Source: Bacilli bacterium | GTDB lineage: Bacteria; Bacillota_I; Bacilli_A; RF39; UBA660 | Length of the DNA stretch: 64,000 nt | Direction: 5' to 3' | NCBI GenBank assembly: GCA_017548925.1 | Contig: JAFYYX010000001.1 | Location: forward strand, 280,829-344,828 | In this document: piece by piece, positions 15,495-26,249 of the stretch | Numbering within the stretch: position 1 is the stretch's first letter | Layout: each line of letters starts with the position of its first letter | Position numbers and translations under genes: made by a program | The notes under the pieces: model-generated | The model's input: the letters and a program-made list of their open reading frames with translations, nothing else | Database searches by the model: none | Told to the model about the DNA's origin: nothing

Positions 15495-15571
15495 GGCGGT
15501 ATTGGTGAAGTGGTTAACACGCTAGATTGTGGCTCTAGTATGCGTGGGTTCGATTCCCACATCCCGCCCCA
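15495..15571 (+). tRNA. tRNA-His (GTG)
   Basis: The anticodon loop gives GTG. An extra G at 15495 (G-1) faces discriminator C73, the histidine identity pair, and CCA is encoded. The acceptor has one mismatch (T5 with C68). It is the last chromosomal feature before the mobile element; whether it served as insertion site is unproven. Confidence 0.93.
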
Positions 15572-16335: not shown

Positions 16336-18364
<2,029 letters not shown>

Positions 18365-18466: not shown

Positions 18467-19888
18467 ATGGAAACTTTAGCCTATTCATTTCATCTTGGTA
18501 ATGACGGAAATAAGTCTAGAAAAGCAAAAGCAAAAAGTAAAAATAATTTAAGTGGCACTACTTCTTTTGCAAATAATGCTATTCAAAATTCTCAACAATT
18601 ATCAAAAGTAAGTAATCATGATTTTAGAAAATATGATGGAGATACAGAATATATTTATGGACTTAGAGGAACTAATGATGTTGTATCGGATGTTAAAGAA
18701 TTATATCTAGATATGTTTGAAGAATCTAGAATAGAATATAACTCAAAACAATCAAGAGCTAGTAGAATGATTAATGATTATTTTAAACATGTATCAGATG
18801 ATGAACAAAAAGATTTAGCTTGTGAAATTATAATTGAACTTGGAAATAAAGATTTTTGGGATACAAAGAATCTAGATTATAAACAGAAAATGGTCAATGT
18901 ATTTAATCAACAATTAAAGGATTTAGAACATAAAGTTCCAGACTTTAAAATATGCTCTGCTGTTGTACATTTAGATGAAGGATCACCTCATATGCATGTT
19001 GTAGGAGTTCCAATTAAATATAACAATACTAGAGGAATGAATATTCAAGTGGGTAAGTCTGCAGTCTTTACAAAAGAAAAACTTGAAAAATTACAAGACT
19101 ATATGAGAGAAAAATGTATTAATGCTTATAATGAGGTTTATGGATTAAATGATGAACACAAAGCTGAATTAAAAGAAAAACAAAAAGGTCGAGCATTTAA
19201 TATACACGTTAAAGATATGGCAAACTATAATGAAATAATGAATCAATTAGAAGTGAATAAAAAAAGTATTAAAGAATCAGATGAGTTAGTTGATAAAATT
19301 GATAAAACATCTAAAGAATTAGATGAGATATTCTATGAAATTGAACCAGATGAATTTAATAATTATAAATTAACAGAAAAGCAAATAGTTAGATTTATTG
19401 AATTAAATGATGAAGTTCAAAGAATGGAAGAAGTATTTTTAAGACTAAAAGAAATATATCAAAATATTAATAAAGTAAAAGGTAATGTAGAATATTTAAA
19501 TAAACGAAATAATGAGTTAATTAAGAAAAATGATGAACTAGCTGATATGAATCAAAGATACGAAAGAAAAATAAAAAATTATGAAGGCTCAGAAGAATTA
19601 TTAAAAACATATATCCATACAAAAGATAAAGAACATTTAGAATTAGTTACTTATCTTTGTAAACATGCTAATAGTCAAGACTACACTACTTCTAGATTCT
19701 ATAAACAATTATCTGACGATTTATATCAAAAAGGATTTATCAAAGATAAAGAACATAGTGTTATATTTAATCCTCCTAAAATTATTAATAGATCTGAAAT
19801 AAATAAAGCTATTAATTCTATTAATAAAGAAATGGAAGAAGCTGCAGAAGAATTCTATAAGACAAAATCTGACAATTATAGTATATAA
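18467..19888 (+). CDS. MobV-family relaxase (plasmid recombination/mobilization protein)
   Basis: A 473-aa protein. The signature histidine motif is VVHLDEGSPHMHVVGVP (about residues 166-182), the HxDE...PHxH form of Mob_Pre (MobV) relaxases. The N-terminus (METLAYSFHLGNDGNKS) differs from the usual plasmid Mob opening. The rest, from about 250, is a long coiled coil (EVQRMEEVFLRLKEIYQ, LNKRNNELIKKNDELADMN) for dimerization. It would nick oriT and lead the strand into a recipient using a helper's transfer machine. AAAAGGAGA precedes ATG 18467. Confidence 0.88.
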   Translation: METLAYSFHLGNDGNKSRKAKAKSKNNLSGTTSFANNAIQNSQQLSKVSNHDFRKYDGDTEYIYGLRGTNDVVSDVKELYLDMFEESRIEYNSKQSRASRMINDYFKHVSDDEQKDLACEIIIELGNKDFWDTKNLDYKQKMVNVFNQQLKDLEHKVPDFKICSAVVHLDEGSPHMHVVGVPIKYNNTRGMNIQVGKSAVFTKEKLEKLQDYMREKCINAYNEVYGLNDEHKAELKEKQKGRAFNIHVKDMANYNEIMNQLEVNKKSIKESDELVDKIDKTSKELDEIFYEIEPDEFNNYKLTEKQIVRFIELNDEVQRMEEVFLRLKEIYQNINKVKGNVEYLNKRNNELIKKNDELADMNQRYERKIKNYEGSEELLKTYIHTKDKEHLELVTYLCKHANSQDYTTSRFYKQLSDDLYQKGFIKDKEHSVIFNPPKIINRSEINKAINSINKEMEEAAEEFYKTKSDNYSI

Positions 19889-19941
19889 TATATTATATAA
19901 AGCAATTGTATCTTGTGTTTGTTTTGGATTGGAGGAATACT

Positions 19942-20526
19942 GTGTTACAAGTAAGTAGGAATAATAATTTAAAAATCCCAAAAGAGATAGAAATAACTAC
20001 TAAGAGTGCAAATAATGTAGAAGATATTATTGAAACAAAAAAAGTAATTGCAATAGCTGAAGGTAGAAAATTTAATTCCAAAAAGGAAAAAGAAAAAGCT
20101 GAGGTGGAAGATAACGAAATAAAAATAATAGATAAACTCCCATTTAATGCAAATGATCTAGTTGTAATTACCGTAGTGAAGAAATTATGTGCTTATGTAA
20201 TTACTATAACCGAAAAATCTCCTAAGAAATTTCGAGGAGTTTTTGTTAATAGAATGCAGAATTATTGCTTAGATACGATAGAATATTTATTAAAGGCAAA
20301 TTTTATTAGAATTGATTCTGCTTTAAATAAAGAAAAAAGAGAGAGTTATCAAAGAGAAGCTATTGTTAAACTGAAATTATTGGGTTATGTTTCTATGGTT
20401 GCAGAATCATCAGGTTGTATTTTAACAAGGCAATATAAACAAATTTCAATGCAACTTGCTGAAGCCATTAATCTAATCACGAGTTGGAAGAAAAGTGATG
20501 ATGAGAGATGGAAAAATAAAAATTAG
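19942..20526 (+). CDS. avd: DGR accessory variability determinant (Avd-like four-helix bundle)
   Basis: About 194 aa. Residues from about 75 on match the Avd/S23-like four-helix fold: VVKKLCAYVITITEKSPKKF, then RMQNYCLDTIEYLLKANFIR, then QREAIVKLKLLGYVSMVAE and YKQISMQLAEAINLITSW. Avd forms a basic barrel that binds the reverse transcriptase and the template RNA and is needed for mutagenic retrohoming. The N-terminal 75 residues, Lys/Glu-rich and probably disordered, are an extension over typical Avd proteins (about 120-130 aa). GTG 19942 follows TTGGAGGA by 5 bp. It directly precedes the TR, the standard DGR order. Confidence 0.87.
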   Translation: MLQVSRNNNLKIPKEIEITTKSANNVEDIIETKKVIAIAEGRKFNSKKEKEKAEVEDNEIKIIDKLPFNANDLVVITVVKKLCAYVITITEKSPKKFRGVFVNRMQNYCLDTIEYLLKANFIRIDSALNKEKRESYQREAIVKLKLLGYVSMVAESSGCILTRQYKQISMQLAEAINLITSWKKSDDERWKNKN

Positions 20527-20539
20527 GATTTTAGGTTGA

Positions 20540-20890
20540 AAGGCCTTTAATTAAGGAGAAAATTTGTATTTGTGTCGTTGCGTTTTTTAGAGCCACTCTC
20601 TTGACTCGCGTGCGCGTTGTTAATAACAATGGTAATGATAACAACAACAATGTCAACAATCGTAATAATGGGGCTCGTCCAGATTCACTTTTGAAGGAAT
20701 TAGTTATAATTCAAAAAACAGATCAGAGAAATATATTTTAAGTAAAATATATCAGTATTGTAAGGTGAAGGAATTTTCTTCTTTTCCAATCGCTAACAGA
20801 TTAAATCTTAGTGCGATAGAAAAATAAAAGAACACTCACACAACCAACGGGTTTTAACTCTTTGCGCGTTATAAGGGGTGTTCATTTTAT
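20540..20890 (+). ncRNA. DGR template RNA region (TR plus 3' spacer)
   Basis: The 379-bp gap between avd and the RT gene has no coding signal. It holds the TR (20608-20685) followed by about 200 bp of spacer. In studied DGRs, RNA spanning the avd end, TR and the spacer is the substrate for cDNA synthesis. The 3' spacer has a conserved-looking arm pair, GAACACTC (20829-20836) with GGGTGTTC (20876-20883), enclosing CAACGGGTTTTAAC. The exact RNA ends cannot be read from sequence. Confidence 0.65.
20608..20685 (+). repeat. DGR template repeat (TR)
   Basis: This 78-bp segment aligns without gaps to 22227-22304 (offset 1619). Of its 27 adenines, 14 differ in the VR; of its 51 other bases, none differ. 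Read in the VR's frame, the TR encodes V-R-V-V then Asn-rich codons (12 AAY codons), R and finally N-N-G-A-R-P. AAY codons are the design signature of DGR templates because A-substitution gives many residues without stop codons. The 3' end GGGGCTCGTCCAG is identical in both copies and would be the initiation-of-mutagenic-homology end. Confidence 0.97.
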
Positions 20891-20905
20891 TTGGAGGTAA
20901 ATATT

Positions 20906-21970
20906 ATGAATTTGAGTGAAATATTTTCATTTGAAAATCTATATAGTGCATATAAACATTGTAGAAATTCAAAGCAACATAAAGGGGAGGTTATAAGATT
21001 TGAATCAAATCTTTCCGTTAATATAAGCAATTTAAGCAAGGAATTAATAAATAAAACTTATAAACTTGGTAAGTATAAAAAGTTCTATATCTACGAACCA
21101 AAAGAGAGATTGATTGAAGCCCTACCCTTTAAAGATAGGGTAATGGTTAGATGCTTTTGTGACATTGTTTTAAGAGACAAGATTGAAGTGAAGTTAATAT
21201 ATGATAATTGTGCATGTAGAAAAAATAAAGGGACTACTTTTGCAATTAATCGATTACATATATTTTTAAGAAATGAGTATATGAAGAGTAAAGATAATAA
21301 TATATATTTCTTAAAGTGTGATATTTGTAAATATTTTCCAAGTATAAACCATGATATTTTGATAAGTATGCTACAAAAGATTGACTTTTCCGATGATGAA
21401 ATGTGGATTATGAAAAAACTCATTAAAGAACAACCTGATAATGCAACTAAAGGGCTTCCTTTAGGTAACCAAACAAGTCAATGGTTTGCACTTTTATACC
21501 TAAATGGAGTTGATCATTTTATTAAAGAACAATTAAAAATAAAACATTATGTGAGATATATGGATGATATGATTTTAATACATAAAGATAAAGAATATTT
21601 GTCATTGTGTAAGAAAAAAATAGAAGAATATTGTAACAATATATTAGACCTAGAATTAAACGATAAAACTCAGATAGGGATGACTAAAAATGGTATTGAT
21701 TTTTTGGGATACAGGCATATTATAAATAGTAATGGTAAAATAATAGTAAAATTAAGGCATTCTTCAAAACAACGAATGAAAAAACATCTTAAGACTTTAT
21801 ATAAAATATATAATAATGGACTTGTAGATGATGAATATGTCTATCAAAGAAAAAATGCCTTCTATAATCATATAGAGTGGACTGCTGAAAGTAAAAGATT
21901 AAAAGATGAGGTTTTCCCCTTTGAAGATGATAAAAGCTTTAAATTTGTCCAAAAATATGTTAAAGAATAG
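20906..21970 (+). CDS. DGR reverse transcriptase
   Basis: A 354-aa group-II-intron-related RT of the DGR clade, without maturase or endonuclease domain. Motifs: KCDICKYFPSINHDIL (catalytic Asp), GLPLGNQTSQWFALLYLN (motif 4, where DGR enzymes have SQ in place of the usual SP), YVRYMDDMIL (YMDD active site), and FLGYRH (motif 7). It copies the TR RNA with error at adenines, and the cDNA replaces the VR. GGAGGT fixes ATG 20906. The order avd-TR-RT and the downstream VR gene complete the cassette. Confidence 0.97.
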   Translation: MNLSEIFSFENLYSAYKHCRNSKQHKGEVIRFESNLSVNISNLSKELINKTYKLGKYKKFYIYEPKERLIEALPFKDRVMVRCFCDIVLRDKIEVKLIYDNCACRKNKGTTFAINRLHIFLRNEYMKSKDNNIYFLKCDICKYFPSINHDILISMLQKIDFSDDEMWIMKKLIKEQPDNATKGLPLGNQTSQWFALLYLNGVDHFIKEQLKIKHYVRYMDDMILIHKDKEYLSLCKKKIEEYCNNILDLELNDKTQIGMTKNGIDFLGYRHIINSNGKIIVKLRHSSKQRMKKHLKTLYKIYNNGLVDDEYVYQRKNAFYNHIEWTAESKRLKDEVFPFEDDKSFKFVQKYVKE

Positions 21971-22003
21971 GAATTTATGTTATGATATATATGGTGATTA
22001 TAA

Positions 22004-24160
22004 ATGGATAATATGACTTTATTAACATATGAGCAAATCTTTGGAGATGAGCAATTAGATATAATTAAAAAATATGGAACTAAATGTGCTGTTACGGACT
22101 TTTCTATTCTTTTAGGGAACGCATATTCTAATGATACTTACACTAACGTTGGAGAAGAAACTGAAGATAAAAAGGAAAGAACAGGATGGTGGTGGACAAA
22201 AACTTCTTATCCGGGATATAGTTCAGGCGTGCGCGTTGTTAGTGACAGTGGTTTTGATGACGACTACAGTGTCAGCATTCGTGATGATGGGGCTCGTCCA
22301 GCTTTACCTTACTCATCAATCAAATTAATCGCCTCGAACGAAGTGAGAGGCAAGTTTGATATTAAGGAAGTTGAATATGGAGAATATCCGCAAACAATCG
22401 TTGATGAAACCCTTTCAAAGAAATTAGAAAAGTGTTATAACGAGGATGTTCCATTTGAAATAGATCTAGTAAGAACGGGAAAAGTATATACTACAGATTC
22501 AGTTAACTATGATGAATATGATACTAATTTTGAACCAGTAGAATATGAAGAGTTTGCATACAAAGGTAAAAAATATATTCGAGTTGTTGCCGGTTTTAAT
22601 GGAAATGGTGAAACACTATCTGATGGTAGAGTAATAGAAGACGGTAAACCATATTGGATTTCTGTTGAACCAATAAAATGGTTAGTAGACGAAAAAGCAA
22701 ATGTAGCACTATCAAAAAAGATCCTTTTTTCTGGAGTTCAATTCCAAAATGATACGGAGTATGATGGAGACTTCGATAAAACTGATATAAAGAAATTTAT
22801 GGACGGATATTTTTCAAAAGAAATATGTAGAGCAACTGCACCTCGTATGTTGTTAGATGAAGACGAGTTGTCATCTTATGTACAAGCAGACACAGAATGG
22901 AATCAAGAATCAGAAGAAAGGAAATCAAGATTACAAAGATTAAATCCTGATACTACTAGTCCTCAAGATAGACGAAGAATGACTGATACAGAGATTATTC
23001 ATTCATGGATAGAAGCAGGACAATCAGTATTACTTAGAGGCCCAAGTGGTATTGGTAAAACTGAAAGGATTAAAGCTTTATATCCAAATTTAATATATAT
23101 AAAATTAACGAATAATATGTTTCCAGAAAAAGTTGTGGGTTCCATGAATCTTCAAACTGGGCAAAATATTCCACCTGATTTTGCTAAGCAAGCTTTACTT
23201 GCTTGTGCAACTAATGAGGAAAGAAGATTAATTAGCGAGAATGTCCAAAACCTTTATGATTTAGCTGACGAAATATATGAAAGATCTAAAAACAGCAATG
23301 AAAAGATAGTTATAATGCTAGATGAATTATTAAACGTTAAACCAGCTGTTCAATCATTAGTCTATACTCTAGTTTTAAATAGATTAGTTGAAGCTGGAAA
23401 AGGATTAAAGCTTCCTGCTAATACTGTTATAGTTGCAACGGGTAACCAAAGGAAGTATTCAAGCGTAGCTGAAGATTTAGCAGAACCACTTGAAAAAAGA
23501 TTTGATCACATTTTAGATATGCAACCAAAAGTTGGTGAATGGATAAATGAATATGCAATACCAAATAAAATTCATCCATCAGTAATTGGATATATACTAT
23601 CTAAATATATTCAAAGTGGAAAAAGTGAACATATTTCTGACATGGGTTATTTTTATGAGGAACCTGAAGTGGGAGAAAAGAGATTAGACCAAAATGGTTG
23701 TAAAGGAAGAACTAATGACCCCCGTGGTTGGACATCAATTTCAAATACTCTTTATGCTTTTGAAGAAGATTTAAGAAAAGGTAAATTTATTGGAAAAGAT
23801 GTAGAGCACATGTTAGAGGTATCTATCAATTCTAAACTTCGCGAGGAATGGGCTAGAGAGTTCTTTGATTTTTATAATATACCTACAATGTCAGTTGATG
23901 AAGTTGTTACAGATTCGTTTTCACAAGCTGATTTACCAAGAGACATTAATGAAAGATTTGCTTGTGTAACATCATTATTGCTTGCTGATGAAAATCAAGT
24001 CGGAAAATGTAGAGATTTTATTAGAAAATATTGTGATCCAGAATATTTACAATTATATGATATTTGTTGGGCAGGTAATGATGAAAGAAAAATAATGAGA
24101 ATAACAGAACTTCAAGAAATGACAATGATTAATGAAGAAAGTGCAGGTAAGAGACTATGA
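22004..24160 (+). CDS. DGR-diversified DUF6273/FGE-like domain fused to MoxR-type AAA+ ATPase
   Basis: A 718-aa protein. Residues about 28-110 carry GWWWTKTSYPGYSSG, the VR, and DGARPALPYSS, the end typical of DUF6273/FGE-like (C-type-lectin-fold) domains. Residues 120-290 resemble the usual first half of that domain (VEYGEYPQT, PYWISVEPIKWLVDE, ALSKKILFSGVQF), so the halves appear in swapped order. A charged linker leads to an AAA+ module: Walker A GPSGIGKTE (about 347-355), Walker B IVIMLDELLN, sensor-1 IVATGNQ, and an arginine in PLEKRFDHI, as in MoxR/dynein-related ATPases. No signal peptide or membrane segment, so cytoplasmic. It heads a three-gene operon, with a 4-bp overlap to the next gene. 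Likely a sensor-ATPase with hypervariable ligand face. Confidence 0.85.
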   Translation: MDNMTLLTYEQIFGDEQLDIIKKYGTKCAVTDFSILLGNAYSNDTYTNVGEETEDKKERTGWWWTKTSYPGYSSGVRVVSDSGFDDDYSVSIRDDGARPALPYSSIKLIASNEVRGKFDIKEVEYGEYPQTIVDETLSKKLEKCYNEDVPFEIDLVRTGKVYTTDSVNYDEYDTNFEPVEYEEFAYKGKKYIRVVAGFNGNGETLSDGRVIEDGKPYWISVEPIKWLVDEKANVALSKKILFSGVQFQNDTEYDGDFDKTDIKKFMDGYFSKEICRATAPRMLLDEDELSSYVQADTEWNQESEERKSRLQRLNPDTTSPQDRRRMTDTEIIHSWIEAGQSVLLRGPSGIGKTERIKALYPNLIYIKLTNNMFPEKVVGSMNLQTGQNIPPDFAKQALLACATNEERRLISENVQNLYDLADEIYERSKNSNEKIVIMLDELLNVKPAVQSLVYTLVLNRLVEAGKGLKLPANTVIVATGNQRKYSSVAEDLAEPLEKRFDHILDMQPKVGEWINEYAIPNKIHPSVIGYILSKYIQSGKSEHISDMGYFYEEPEVGEKRLDQNGCKGRTNDPRGWTSISNTLYAFEEDLRKGKFIGKDVEHMLEVSINSKLREEWAREFFDFYNIPTMSVDEVVTDSFSQADLPRDINERFACVTSLLLADENQVGKCRDFIRKYCDPEYLQLYDICWAGNDERKIMRITELQEMTMINEESAGKRL
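22227..22304 (+). repeat. DGR variable repeat (VR) inside the ATPase gene
   Basis: It encodes about residues 75-101 of the ATPase protein. Relative to the TR every Asn codon has changed: to Ser (4), Asp (5), Phe, Tyr and Ile (1 each). The nucleotide changes are 9 A to G, 4 A to T and 1 A to C, the last at 22302 near the repeat end. Outside these bases the copies are identical, showing recent retrohoming or strong constraint. The VR lies in the middle of the N-terminal domain, not at the C-terminus as in most DGR targets. Confidence 0.97.
22331..22351 (+). other. Hairpin just downstream of the VR
   Basis: GCCTC (22331-22335) pairs with GAGGC (22347-22351), 26 bp after the VR end. Several DGRs have a short hairpin or cruciform right after the initiation site that aids target recognition. 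The stem here is only 5 bp with an 11-nt loop, so it is a candidate only. Confidence 0.35.
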
Positions 24161-24546
24161 ATAAAGAGTTAATTGAATTACAAAGAGGTAGTAAAGCTAC
24201 TTGCGTTGTGGTAAAGAATAGTGATTTAAACAAACTTGGAAATGCTGTGCATATGGATTCAAGAATAAATGATTCATGGTTGTTTGGTGCTAAAATGGGT
24301 AATCCAATAATTAAAGAAAAGGTAGATATTGTTTCAAAAAATGGTGAAATAGGGTATTTTGTTATTACTAATTTTGATTCTTTATCAGTTGATGAACAAA
24401 ATAAATATGTTCCAATAATTAAAGATAGAGAACTTCTTGGTTATACATTACCAGATAATATAATAATAGTATTATCTATAGAAAATAAAGAATCATTAAA
24501 AAATATTTCTTCAGAAATTTATCATTTTTGTGTAGTATCAATTTAG
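24157..24546 (+). CDS. Unknown 129-aa protein of the ATPase/VWA operon
   Basis: Not recognised. A small globular-looking protein opening MNKELIELQRGSKATCVVVK, without membrane segment. ATG 24157 overlaps the ATPase stop (ATGA), and the VWA gene starts 10 bp after its stop, so all three are made together. GYFVITNFDSLSVDEQNKY followed by PDNIIIVLSIEN resembles the Walker-B and sensor-1 strands of an AAA core without a P-loop, so it could be a degenerate AAA-like or adaptor subunit; this is weak. Confidence 0.7.
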   Translation: MNKELIELQRGSKATCVVVKNSDLNKLGNAVHMDSRINDSWLFGAKMGNPIIKEKVDIVSKNGEIGYFVITNFDSLSVDEQNKYVPIIKDRELLGYTLPDNIIIVLSIENKESLKNISSEIYHFCVVSI

Positions 24547-24556
24547 GTGATTGTTT

Positions 24557-26026
24557 ATGGATGCAATGACAAAATTACTTTACGAAACTAAACGATTAAT
24601 GATGTTAAGATATCCAAGATTTGCAAGTGAGATAGCATCAGCAAATATTTCCTATAGAACGGATTTAAAATGTCATACTGCGGCAACTGATGGAAAAAAT
24701 ATTTTCTTTGATCCAGAATACTTAGCAGGTTTAAGCGAGGCAGATAGATTATTTCTTATTGCACATGAATTAATGCATATTAAATTTGCTCATGCATTTA
24801 GACTTGAAGATAAAAATGGTGAAAAACGTGATATGGATACATGGAATATAGCAACCGATGCTATAATAAACGCTAATCTTGAAAGAGACGGATTTATTAT
24901 TAAAGAGGGATATGTTAACAGACCTGAAGCTTTGAATTATTCTGCAGAAGAGTTTTATCAATTACTTTTAGAAGAAAAAAAATCTAAAGAACAAGAACAA
25001 CAAAGTAATAGTGATCAAGGCAGTCAAGATAAAAATAGAAGTGAAGATTCACAAGAACAAACTGAGAGTCAAAATAGTAATGGCGAAACTCAACAAGATC
25101 AATCAAACGCTCAAGATGGTGAATCATCAAACGATAAGAATGATGGTGAAGGTCAACAAATCGGTGATGACCATAGTTTATGGGAAGAAGCTTTTGAAAA
25201 AAGAAAAAATGGTGATAAATCTAATGATAATTCTAATAGTTCTCAAAGCGATGATATATCAGCAAATGATGATTTAGAATCTCATAGTTTTGACGAGAAA
25301 GAAGAGTTTGAGAAGAATTATGAGGAAAGAAGAACAAGAGCTAAGGAAAATTTAGAAAGATTAAAGAAAGAGATGTTAACTGATTCAAATTTCTCTGATA
25401 AAACTAATTTAGGTTCAGTTGGTGAAAGCGTTGAAGAATTTGATTGGAGACTTTTATTAAGAAGAGAAGTTGAAAAGACTGAAACAATATGGTCGCAAAG
25501 AAGATCAATAGCAGAAAATAATTACGCTTATCGATTAGAAGAAAACGATATTGATGATGAAGCTGAAACAGAAGTTATGATAGATGTTTCTGGTTCGGTT
25601 GATTTGGATTTGGTTAAAGCATTTTTAAGAATGATAAAGCCAATATTAAAAGAATCAAAATTAAAAGTTGGATGTTTCAATGAAAAGTTTTGGGGTATGA
25701 AGGAAATTAAAAGTGTGAATGACATTGATAATTTTGAAATACCTAGTGGAGCAAGAGGGCACTCTGCATGGACAGAAGACTGGGATTTAGCTGTTAGATC
25801 TTTTACTAAGAAAAGAGAAATAAATAAAATTGTTTTTACGGATGGTGAACCTTGTCCTGGAACTATGCCTAAAGATGATTTAAAAAATGAAAATGTTATT
25901 TGGCTTGTATATGGTAATAGATATTTTAAACCATGCTGTGGTACTGTAATTCAAATTACTTCAAAGCAACTTGAAAGACTATATGATTGTAAAGTTGATG
26001 AAGATGCAAGTAGGAAGATTAGATAA
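24557..26026 (+). CDS. Metallopeptidase-like plus VWA domain protein (DUF2201 type)
   Basis: About 489 aa. The N-terminal domain has LIAHELMHIKFAHAF, an HExxH zinc-peptidase-like motif at about residues 75-80 (DUF2201 N-terminal type). Residues 140-275 are a low-complexity Gln/Ser/Asp/Glu/Asn linker, then a coiled coil. The C-terminal part is VWA-like: TEVMIDVSGSVD is the MIDAS DxSxS motif and IVFTDGEPC its second metal-site element. Such proteins are the classic partners of MoxR ATPases, which remodel them. It probably acts as the effector or substrate receptor of the diversified ATPase. AGGTGA fixes ATG 24557. Confidence 0.87.
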   Translation: MDAMTKLLYETKRLMMLRYPRFASEIASANISYRTDLKCHTAATDGKNIFFDPEYLAGLSEADRLFLIAHELMHIKFAHAFRLEDKNGEKRDMDTWNIATDAIINANLERDGFIIKEGYVNRPEALNYSAEEFYQLLLEEKKSKEQEQQSNSDQGSQDKNRSEDSQEQTESQNSNGETQQDQSNAQDGESSNDKNDGEGQQIGDDHSLWEEAFEKRKNGDKSNDNSNSSQSDDISANDDLESHSFDEKEEFEKNYEERRTRAKENLERLKKEMLTDSNFSDKTNLGSVGESVEEFDWRLLLRREVEKTETIWSQRRSIAENNYAYRLEENDIDDEAETEVMIDVSGSVDLDLVKAFLRMIKPILKESKLKVGCFNEKFWGMKEIKSVNDIDNFEIPSGARGHSAWTEDWDLAVRSFTKKREINKIVFTDGEPCPGTMPKDDLKNENVIWLVYGNRYFKPCCGTVIQITSKQLERLYDCKVDEDASRKIR

Positions 26027-26111: not shown

Positions 26112-26249
26112 TTGATAATTTATAGATTTTTGTAGTATAATGTTTATAGAAAAATTTTATACTTGTGAAACAAGGTGGAAAGTTTAAAAGTATCTAAATA
26201 AACGCCCCAGATTTGATAATAAAACGAACTATATTAATAGTTCGTTTTT
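26112..26249 (+). ncRNA. Candidate small RNA at right edge of element
   Basis: The 255-bp gap after the VWA gene holds a promoter (TTGATA 26112, TATAAT 26136-26141, 18-bp spacing), a stretch of about 75 bp without ORF, and a perfect terminator hairpin at 26221-26249. The predicted transcript of about 105 nt includes CTTGTGAAACAAG and ATACTT...AAGTAT arms. No known RNA family is recognised. An inverted repeat AAAATCTATA/TATAGATTTT (26083-26130) overlaps the promoter and could be an operator. The right end of the element lies in this region. Confidence 0.4.
26221..26249 (+). terminator. Terminator before GNAT gene
   Basis: AAAACGAACTAT pairs perfectly with ATAGTTCGTTTT around ATTA. It is followed 18 bp later by TATAAT, the -10 element of the GNAT gene's promoter. 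Confidence 0.85.

Follow-up and report, generated by a model that had tools for sequence, protein, structure and literature searches.

The question raised by this locus is whether a pair of repeats that differ at adenines belongs to a working diversity-generating retroelement (DGR) and, if so, what that retroelement diversifies. We conclude that the window, i.e. the whole stretch of 64,000 nucleotides that was analysed, very probably holds a complete and recently active DGR which lies on a 10.6-kb element at a tRNA-His gene and diversifies the N-terminal domain of a MoxR-type ATPase, for which we infer a sensor role. The genes are arranged in the order recombinase, MobV relaxase, Avd, TR, spacer, reverse transcriptase (RT), target, 129-aa protein and DUF2201_N/vWA protein, and all features given below lie on the plus strand. 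The system is of a known kind but its arrangement departs from textbook DGRs in several ways.

We compared the TR (20608-20685), whose neighbouring 3' bases pair with the spacer, to the VR (22227-22304, approximately codons 75-101 of the target) base by base. The two align over 78 bp without gaps and with 14 mismatches: 9 A to G, 4 A to T and 1 A to C. All of them fall on adenines of the TR (14 of 27, compared to 0 of the 51 other bases), as is required of a DGR, and all 12 Asn codons of the TR are changed in the VR. Under random placement the chance of finding 14 out of 14 mismatches at A is ~(27/78)^14 = ~4e-7. The realignment reproduced the coordinates, the mismatch counts and the alteration of every Asn codon as given in the preliminary description. 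A 141-bp probe from the TR region matched only the TR and the single VR in the 1.07-Mb assembly.

The preliminary description had attributed all 14 differences to adenine mutagenesis, which holds for 13 of them. The last mismatch (TR A20683, VR C22302) lies in an end motif that reads CCAGAT in the copy upstream of the RT and CCAGCT in the target copy at every clade locus in which the motif was found. Because this A to C difference is fixed across the relatives it is not a product of mutagenesis, and it reads as an IMH*/IMH-type difference. The bases just 5' of the motif change jointly in TR and VR (e.g. GGAGCCCGTCCAG in L087) and we therefore place the boundary of replacement at CCAGAT/CCAGCT. 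The window thus shows IMH/IMH* 3' ends together with a hairpin after the VR, a further mark of DGRs. Differences at other bases in more genomes would have spoken against adenine mutagenesis, so we looked for them: across 31 TR-VR pairs of the clade 317 of 771 adenines were changed, compared to 13 of 1485 other bases, and the adenine bias holds.

Avd and a DGR-type RT flank the TR as had been described, Avd upstream and the RT downstream. For Avd (19942-20526) the listed open reading frame begins at 19906; we placed the start at the GTG at 19942, based on the relatives (62-77% identical) and a GGAG site. The protein carries an N-terminal extension of ~75 aa. Its match to PHROG 3206 ('Avd protein of DGR', E 3.7e-17) identifies it as the accessory protein, and its matches in Pfam and NCBIfam stay under the curated cut-off. 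The RT (20906-21970, 354 aa) has an intact frame and intact catalytic motifs, namely GLPLGNQTSQ with the SQ motif and YMDD. Its best solved relative is 8ub7 and its set (5e-40), labelled 'Reverse transcriptase' in the structure listing, which we take to be the BPP-1 DGR RT; a group II maturase follows at 1e-10. The neighbours of the RT on the tree carry TR-VR pairs, and together with the match to 8ub7 this places it in the DGR clade. Between TR and RT we found a structured spacer RNA (20681-20895) with a consensus of 48 pairs, 20 of them with compensatory changes; one inner 2-bp helix was scored one column off, which lowered the score. PADLOC reported only RT families and weak matches of the target, the best being DolB.

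To judge whether the DGR has been active recently we used two near-identical copies from the scan of species genomes, L073 (RGIG6846, sheep rumen) and L074 (RGIG5875, sheep jejunum), with ~98% identity to the window over the element. The copies diverge by ~0.5% in most genes and spacers and by 1 base in the TR, whereas the VR differs from that of the window at 21 of 78 bases in L073 and at 20 of 78 in L074. The one TR difference is informative: position 20611 carries a T in the window but a C in both L073 and L074, and within each of the three copies VR base 22230 equals TR base 20611. Such a shared non-A marker is as expected for a transfer of information between the repeats, presumably from TR to VR. 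The VR is thus not identical in related copies, and this natural variation argues for an active DGR, as had been proposed, in so far as activity can be read from sequence.

Between the VRs of L073 (9322-9399) and L074 (6663-6740) there are 5 differences, every one at a TR adenine. Most mutated sites are common to both, and L074 retains the TR adenine at each of the 5 separating sites. This nested pattern is unexpected if every homing event replaces the whole VR from the TR; it may have arisen by patchy repair or partial conversion, or it may reflect assembly mixtures. A second divergent stretch among the three copies is the acidic, Q/S/N-rich linker of low complexity in the DUF2201/vWA gene (~24990-25310 of the window); the gene as a whole shows ~90 mismatches and one indel of 45 nt.

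The target (22004-24160, 718 aa) consists of a VR-bearing DUF6273-like domain (residues ~1-278) followed by a MoxR-type AAA_5 ATPase with Walker motifs (342-500). We detected no strongly hydrophobic stretch and it is therefore probably a cytoplasmic protein. With the VR at codons 75-101 of 718, it lacks the C-terminal VR that is typical of DGRs, though not defining, and the same is true for the clade: at loci with an intact start codon the anchor at the VR end lies at residue ~89-98 of ~640-740-aa proteins. In the more distant DGRs of the same scan the VR is mostly ≤ ~30 aa from the C-terminus. Roux and colleagues found the C-terminal position to be near-universal and gave as the reason that the homing signals are intergenic (PMC8144416).

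This exception appears to stem from a circular permutation of the DUF6273-like domain. Target residues 59-101 match the end and residues 193-282 the beginning of DUF6273-like targets in standard order. When the halves of the profile were swapped we obtained a single alignment with a score of 75 compared to 55 (RT control <1%). The DUF6273 match of the window reaches 20.1 bits at a cut-off of 23.5, and searching Pfam with permuted sequences did not raise the score, so the case for the permutation is made by the profile comparison, the motifs and the sister targets. Two of the latter, L109 (26.8 bits) and L111 (30.3 bits), have an N-terminal DUF6273 match over the cut-off and carry first-half motifs such as MWQNS..RGFLNG further on; the C-terminal part of L109 consists of BspA-type repeats and not of AAA. 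The VR domain is probably a circularly permuted DUF6273/C-lectin-like domain. The AlphaFold model is confident (pLDDT 90.9); Foldseek of this model against PDB and BFVD gave no confident and no order-dependent match. A plasmid search returned two weak AAA matches only, and a literature search for DGRs with circular permutation only a jumbo-phage overview.

The hairpin after the VR lies inside the codons of the target. This stem-loop (22331-22351, GCCTC-GAACGAAGTGA-GAGGC) is located 26 bp 3' of the VR and has a 5-bp stem and a conserved 11-nt loop. In relatives the stem reads GCCTC/GAGGC, CCCAC/GTGGG, TCTAC/GTAGA or TCCCC/GGGGA, and some of these paired changes alter amino acids on both sides. 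We counted 15 double-change cells; covariation as high was observed in none of 500 shuffles. BPP-1 requires a hairpin after the VR, and the hairpins of related phage DGRs lie 4-34 bp downstream of it with stems of 7-10 bp and GRNA loops (PMC3240598). The hairpin of the window differs from this type in its place in codons, its 5-bp stem and its conserved 11-nt loop. As a whole clade breaks the C-terminal rule with a covarying hairpin in codons, the explanation by intergenic homing signals becomes testable.

A further characteristic of the clade is the occurrence of stop codons in the TR. In-frame TAA, TGA or TAG was found in the mutable stretch of the TR in 11 of 31 pairs, at three codon positions. 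The stop is retained in 6 of the 11 VRs (L080, L087, L089, L095, L096 and L118), and the other 5 (L094, L099, L100, L107 and L119) have Trp, Cys or Arg at its position. Four sister loci also have TRs with stops, the TR of the window has none in frame, and among the more distant DGRs the count is 0 of 19 TRs, not counting natural end stops and one misframed row. The distribution of TR stops over the RT tree requires at least 6 changes. Recoding (e.g. TGA as Trp) was rejected: TAA and TAG occur too and the target of the window ends in TGA. DGR codons have been viewed as chosen to avoid truncation (PMC12875486), and the TRs with stop codons speak against this view. Since the permutation put the VR near the N-terminus, a stop in the VR would silence the whole ATPase fusion. 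Mutagenic homing could then double as a reversible on/off switch in this DGR lineage, a reading we put forward tentatively and with somewhat less than even confidence; translation may instead restart after the stop.

The DGR of the window is part of an element of 10,638 bp. Its left attachment site is the 3' end (CGCCCCA, 15565-15571) of a tRNA-His gene (15496-15571), and the same CGCCCCA repeat forms the right junction at 26203-26209. Between them we found a large serine recombinase (16454-18364, Resolvase and Recombinase domains) and, by domain match, a MobV-type relaxase (Mob_Pre, 18467-19888). L073 also has the element at tRNA-His, in a genome with flanks unlike those of the window, the L074 contig consists of nothing but the element and has CGCCCCATT at each end, and in G003, of the same genus, the tRNA-His is followed directly by terminator-like sequence, i.e. 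an empty site. Integrase, relaxase, attachment repeats, other hosts and an empty site are all present, and the element is integrative and probably mobilizable. In most relatives the Mob and recombinase genes do not adjoin the DGR, so mobility is a property of the window's copy. The host is a gut Bacilli bacterium with a small genome (1.07-Mb assembly). Together with the AAA+/metallopeptidase-vWA pair on the mobile element, the DGR is a candidate for a compact sensing system of such bacteria that diversifies itself and can be transferred.

Two genes follow the target on the element. The start of the first (24157-24546) overlaps the target stop; it encodes a 129-aa protein that is kept in relatives and has no family match in profile searches. 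The second (24551-26026) encodes a DUF2201_N metallopeptidase-like protein (HELMH) with a C-terminal vWA-like part, judged from its DVSGS motif, so that a MoxR-type AAA+ protein and a vWA protein adjoin. The proposed mechanism is as follows. RT and Avd would copy the TR RNA together with the structured spacer, erring opposite adenines, and the cDNA would take the place of the VR, with the constant 3' end (IMH) and the stem-loop 26 bp beyond it as guides. The VR encodes a variable patch of the permuted domain on the cytoplasmic ATPase. This domain may sense varying ligands, most plausibly proteins of invaders, and the AAA+ ring might pass the binding signal on to two partners, the 129-aa protein and the metallopeptidase-vWA protein, in the manner suggested for MoxR-vWA conflict systems. 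By analogy, a diversified cytoplasmic sensor that feeds a MoxR-vWA machine is thus the likely function.

We compared this arrangement to known systems. BPP-1-type DGRs share the Avd-TR-spacer-RT order, the adenine-specific differences, the IMH-type end, the post-VR hairpin and the structured spacer (PMC3240598, PMC12875486); the window departs from them in placing the VR close to the N-terminus of an ATPase fusion and in the extended Avd. Published proposals (PMC7159879, PMC10907252) interpret MoxR-vWA systems that carry a DGR-diversified domain as conflict systems. In their ternary (VMAP) form, as in the window, a single locus encodes a MoxR-type AAA+ protein, a DGR-diversified domain and a vWA protein. 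However, the variable domain is here fused to the front of the AAA+ protein and not to the vWA protein, no VMAP component was seen in the locus, where the third gene is that of the 129-aa protein, and the host is not a multicellular bacterium. A MoxR ATPase paired with a vWA protein that has an N-terminal metallopeptidase domain was described in jumbo phages, where no DGR or variable domain is described (PMC7824862); the AAA part of the target matches the jumbo-phage ATPases at 22%. The window combines this pair with a DGR-diversified MoxR-vWA module. DGR targets of CPR bacteria likewise join a C-lectin-type VR domain to an AAA ATPase, but by the description given their C-lectin part is C-terminal and their RTs fall into another clade (PMC10907252). 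A literature search for DUF2201 with MoxR found nothing.

There are several possible alternatives to an active DGR that diversifies a sensor. The two similar copies could be coding repeats that arose by ordinary duplication or that exchange sequence by gene conversion, an explanation that the preliminary description had already set aside and to which we give practically no credence: the adenine restriction across 31 pairs and a near-constant TR beside a changing VR refute it, and the repeats are linked to RT and Avd. It is also very improbable that the DGR is a relic with old VR differences and an RT that no longer works. Such decay does occur, as in G062, where a relative has retained the target next to a broken RT, but in the window the RT frame and motifs are intact, the VR differs at 20-21 of 78 positions between copies ~99.5% identical in most genes, and the TR marker is matched in the VR.

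More weight is due to a working DGR whose target is no defence sensor, with a housekeeping or surface-related module in which the variable domain picks clients. In the family the module often occurs without a DGR, and for the MoxR and metallopeptidase-vWA pair of jumbo phages a role in virion assembly has been proposed (PMC7824862). A changing opponent would better account for the continual diversification of a cytoplasmic protein that is encoded on a mobile element, although this argument is indirect, and related conflict-system proposals are published (PMC7159879, PMC10907252). We thus consider the non-defence role unlikely, though by no means negligible, and favour the sensor.

The relatives that share this RT type fall into a single group on the tree (36 rows, SH-aLRT 98), and the order Avd-TR-RT-target-(small protein)-DUF2201/vWA is kept in most loci with enough flank; several loci (L083, L085, L088 and L090) have two targets per TR. 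In G062 the RT remnant (L159) has several stop codons and lies beside the kept target in L059 and a DUF2201 gene; here the DGR appears to be lost and the module retained. G170 encodes a 960-aa relative (L053, 10763-13645) in which two VR-type domains in tandem precede an AAA part 93% identical to that of the window; a close DGR RT is absent from this genome. The N-domain also occurs alone or in tandem gene arrays in many genomes of the family (L071, 8126-11774 (G107), L067, L066 and others), without AAA and without a neighbouring DGR. Finally, an IMG/VR contig of 40 kb filed as viral (L163) shows the Avd-RT-target-DUF2201 layout; it could represent the surroundings of a prophage or be a bacterial contig that was filed in error.
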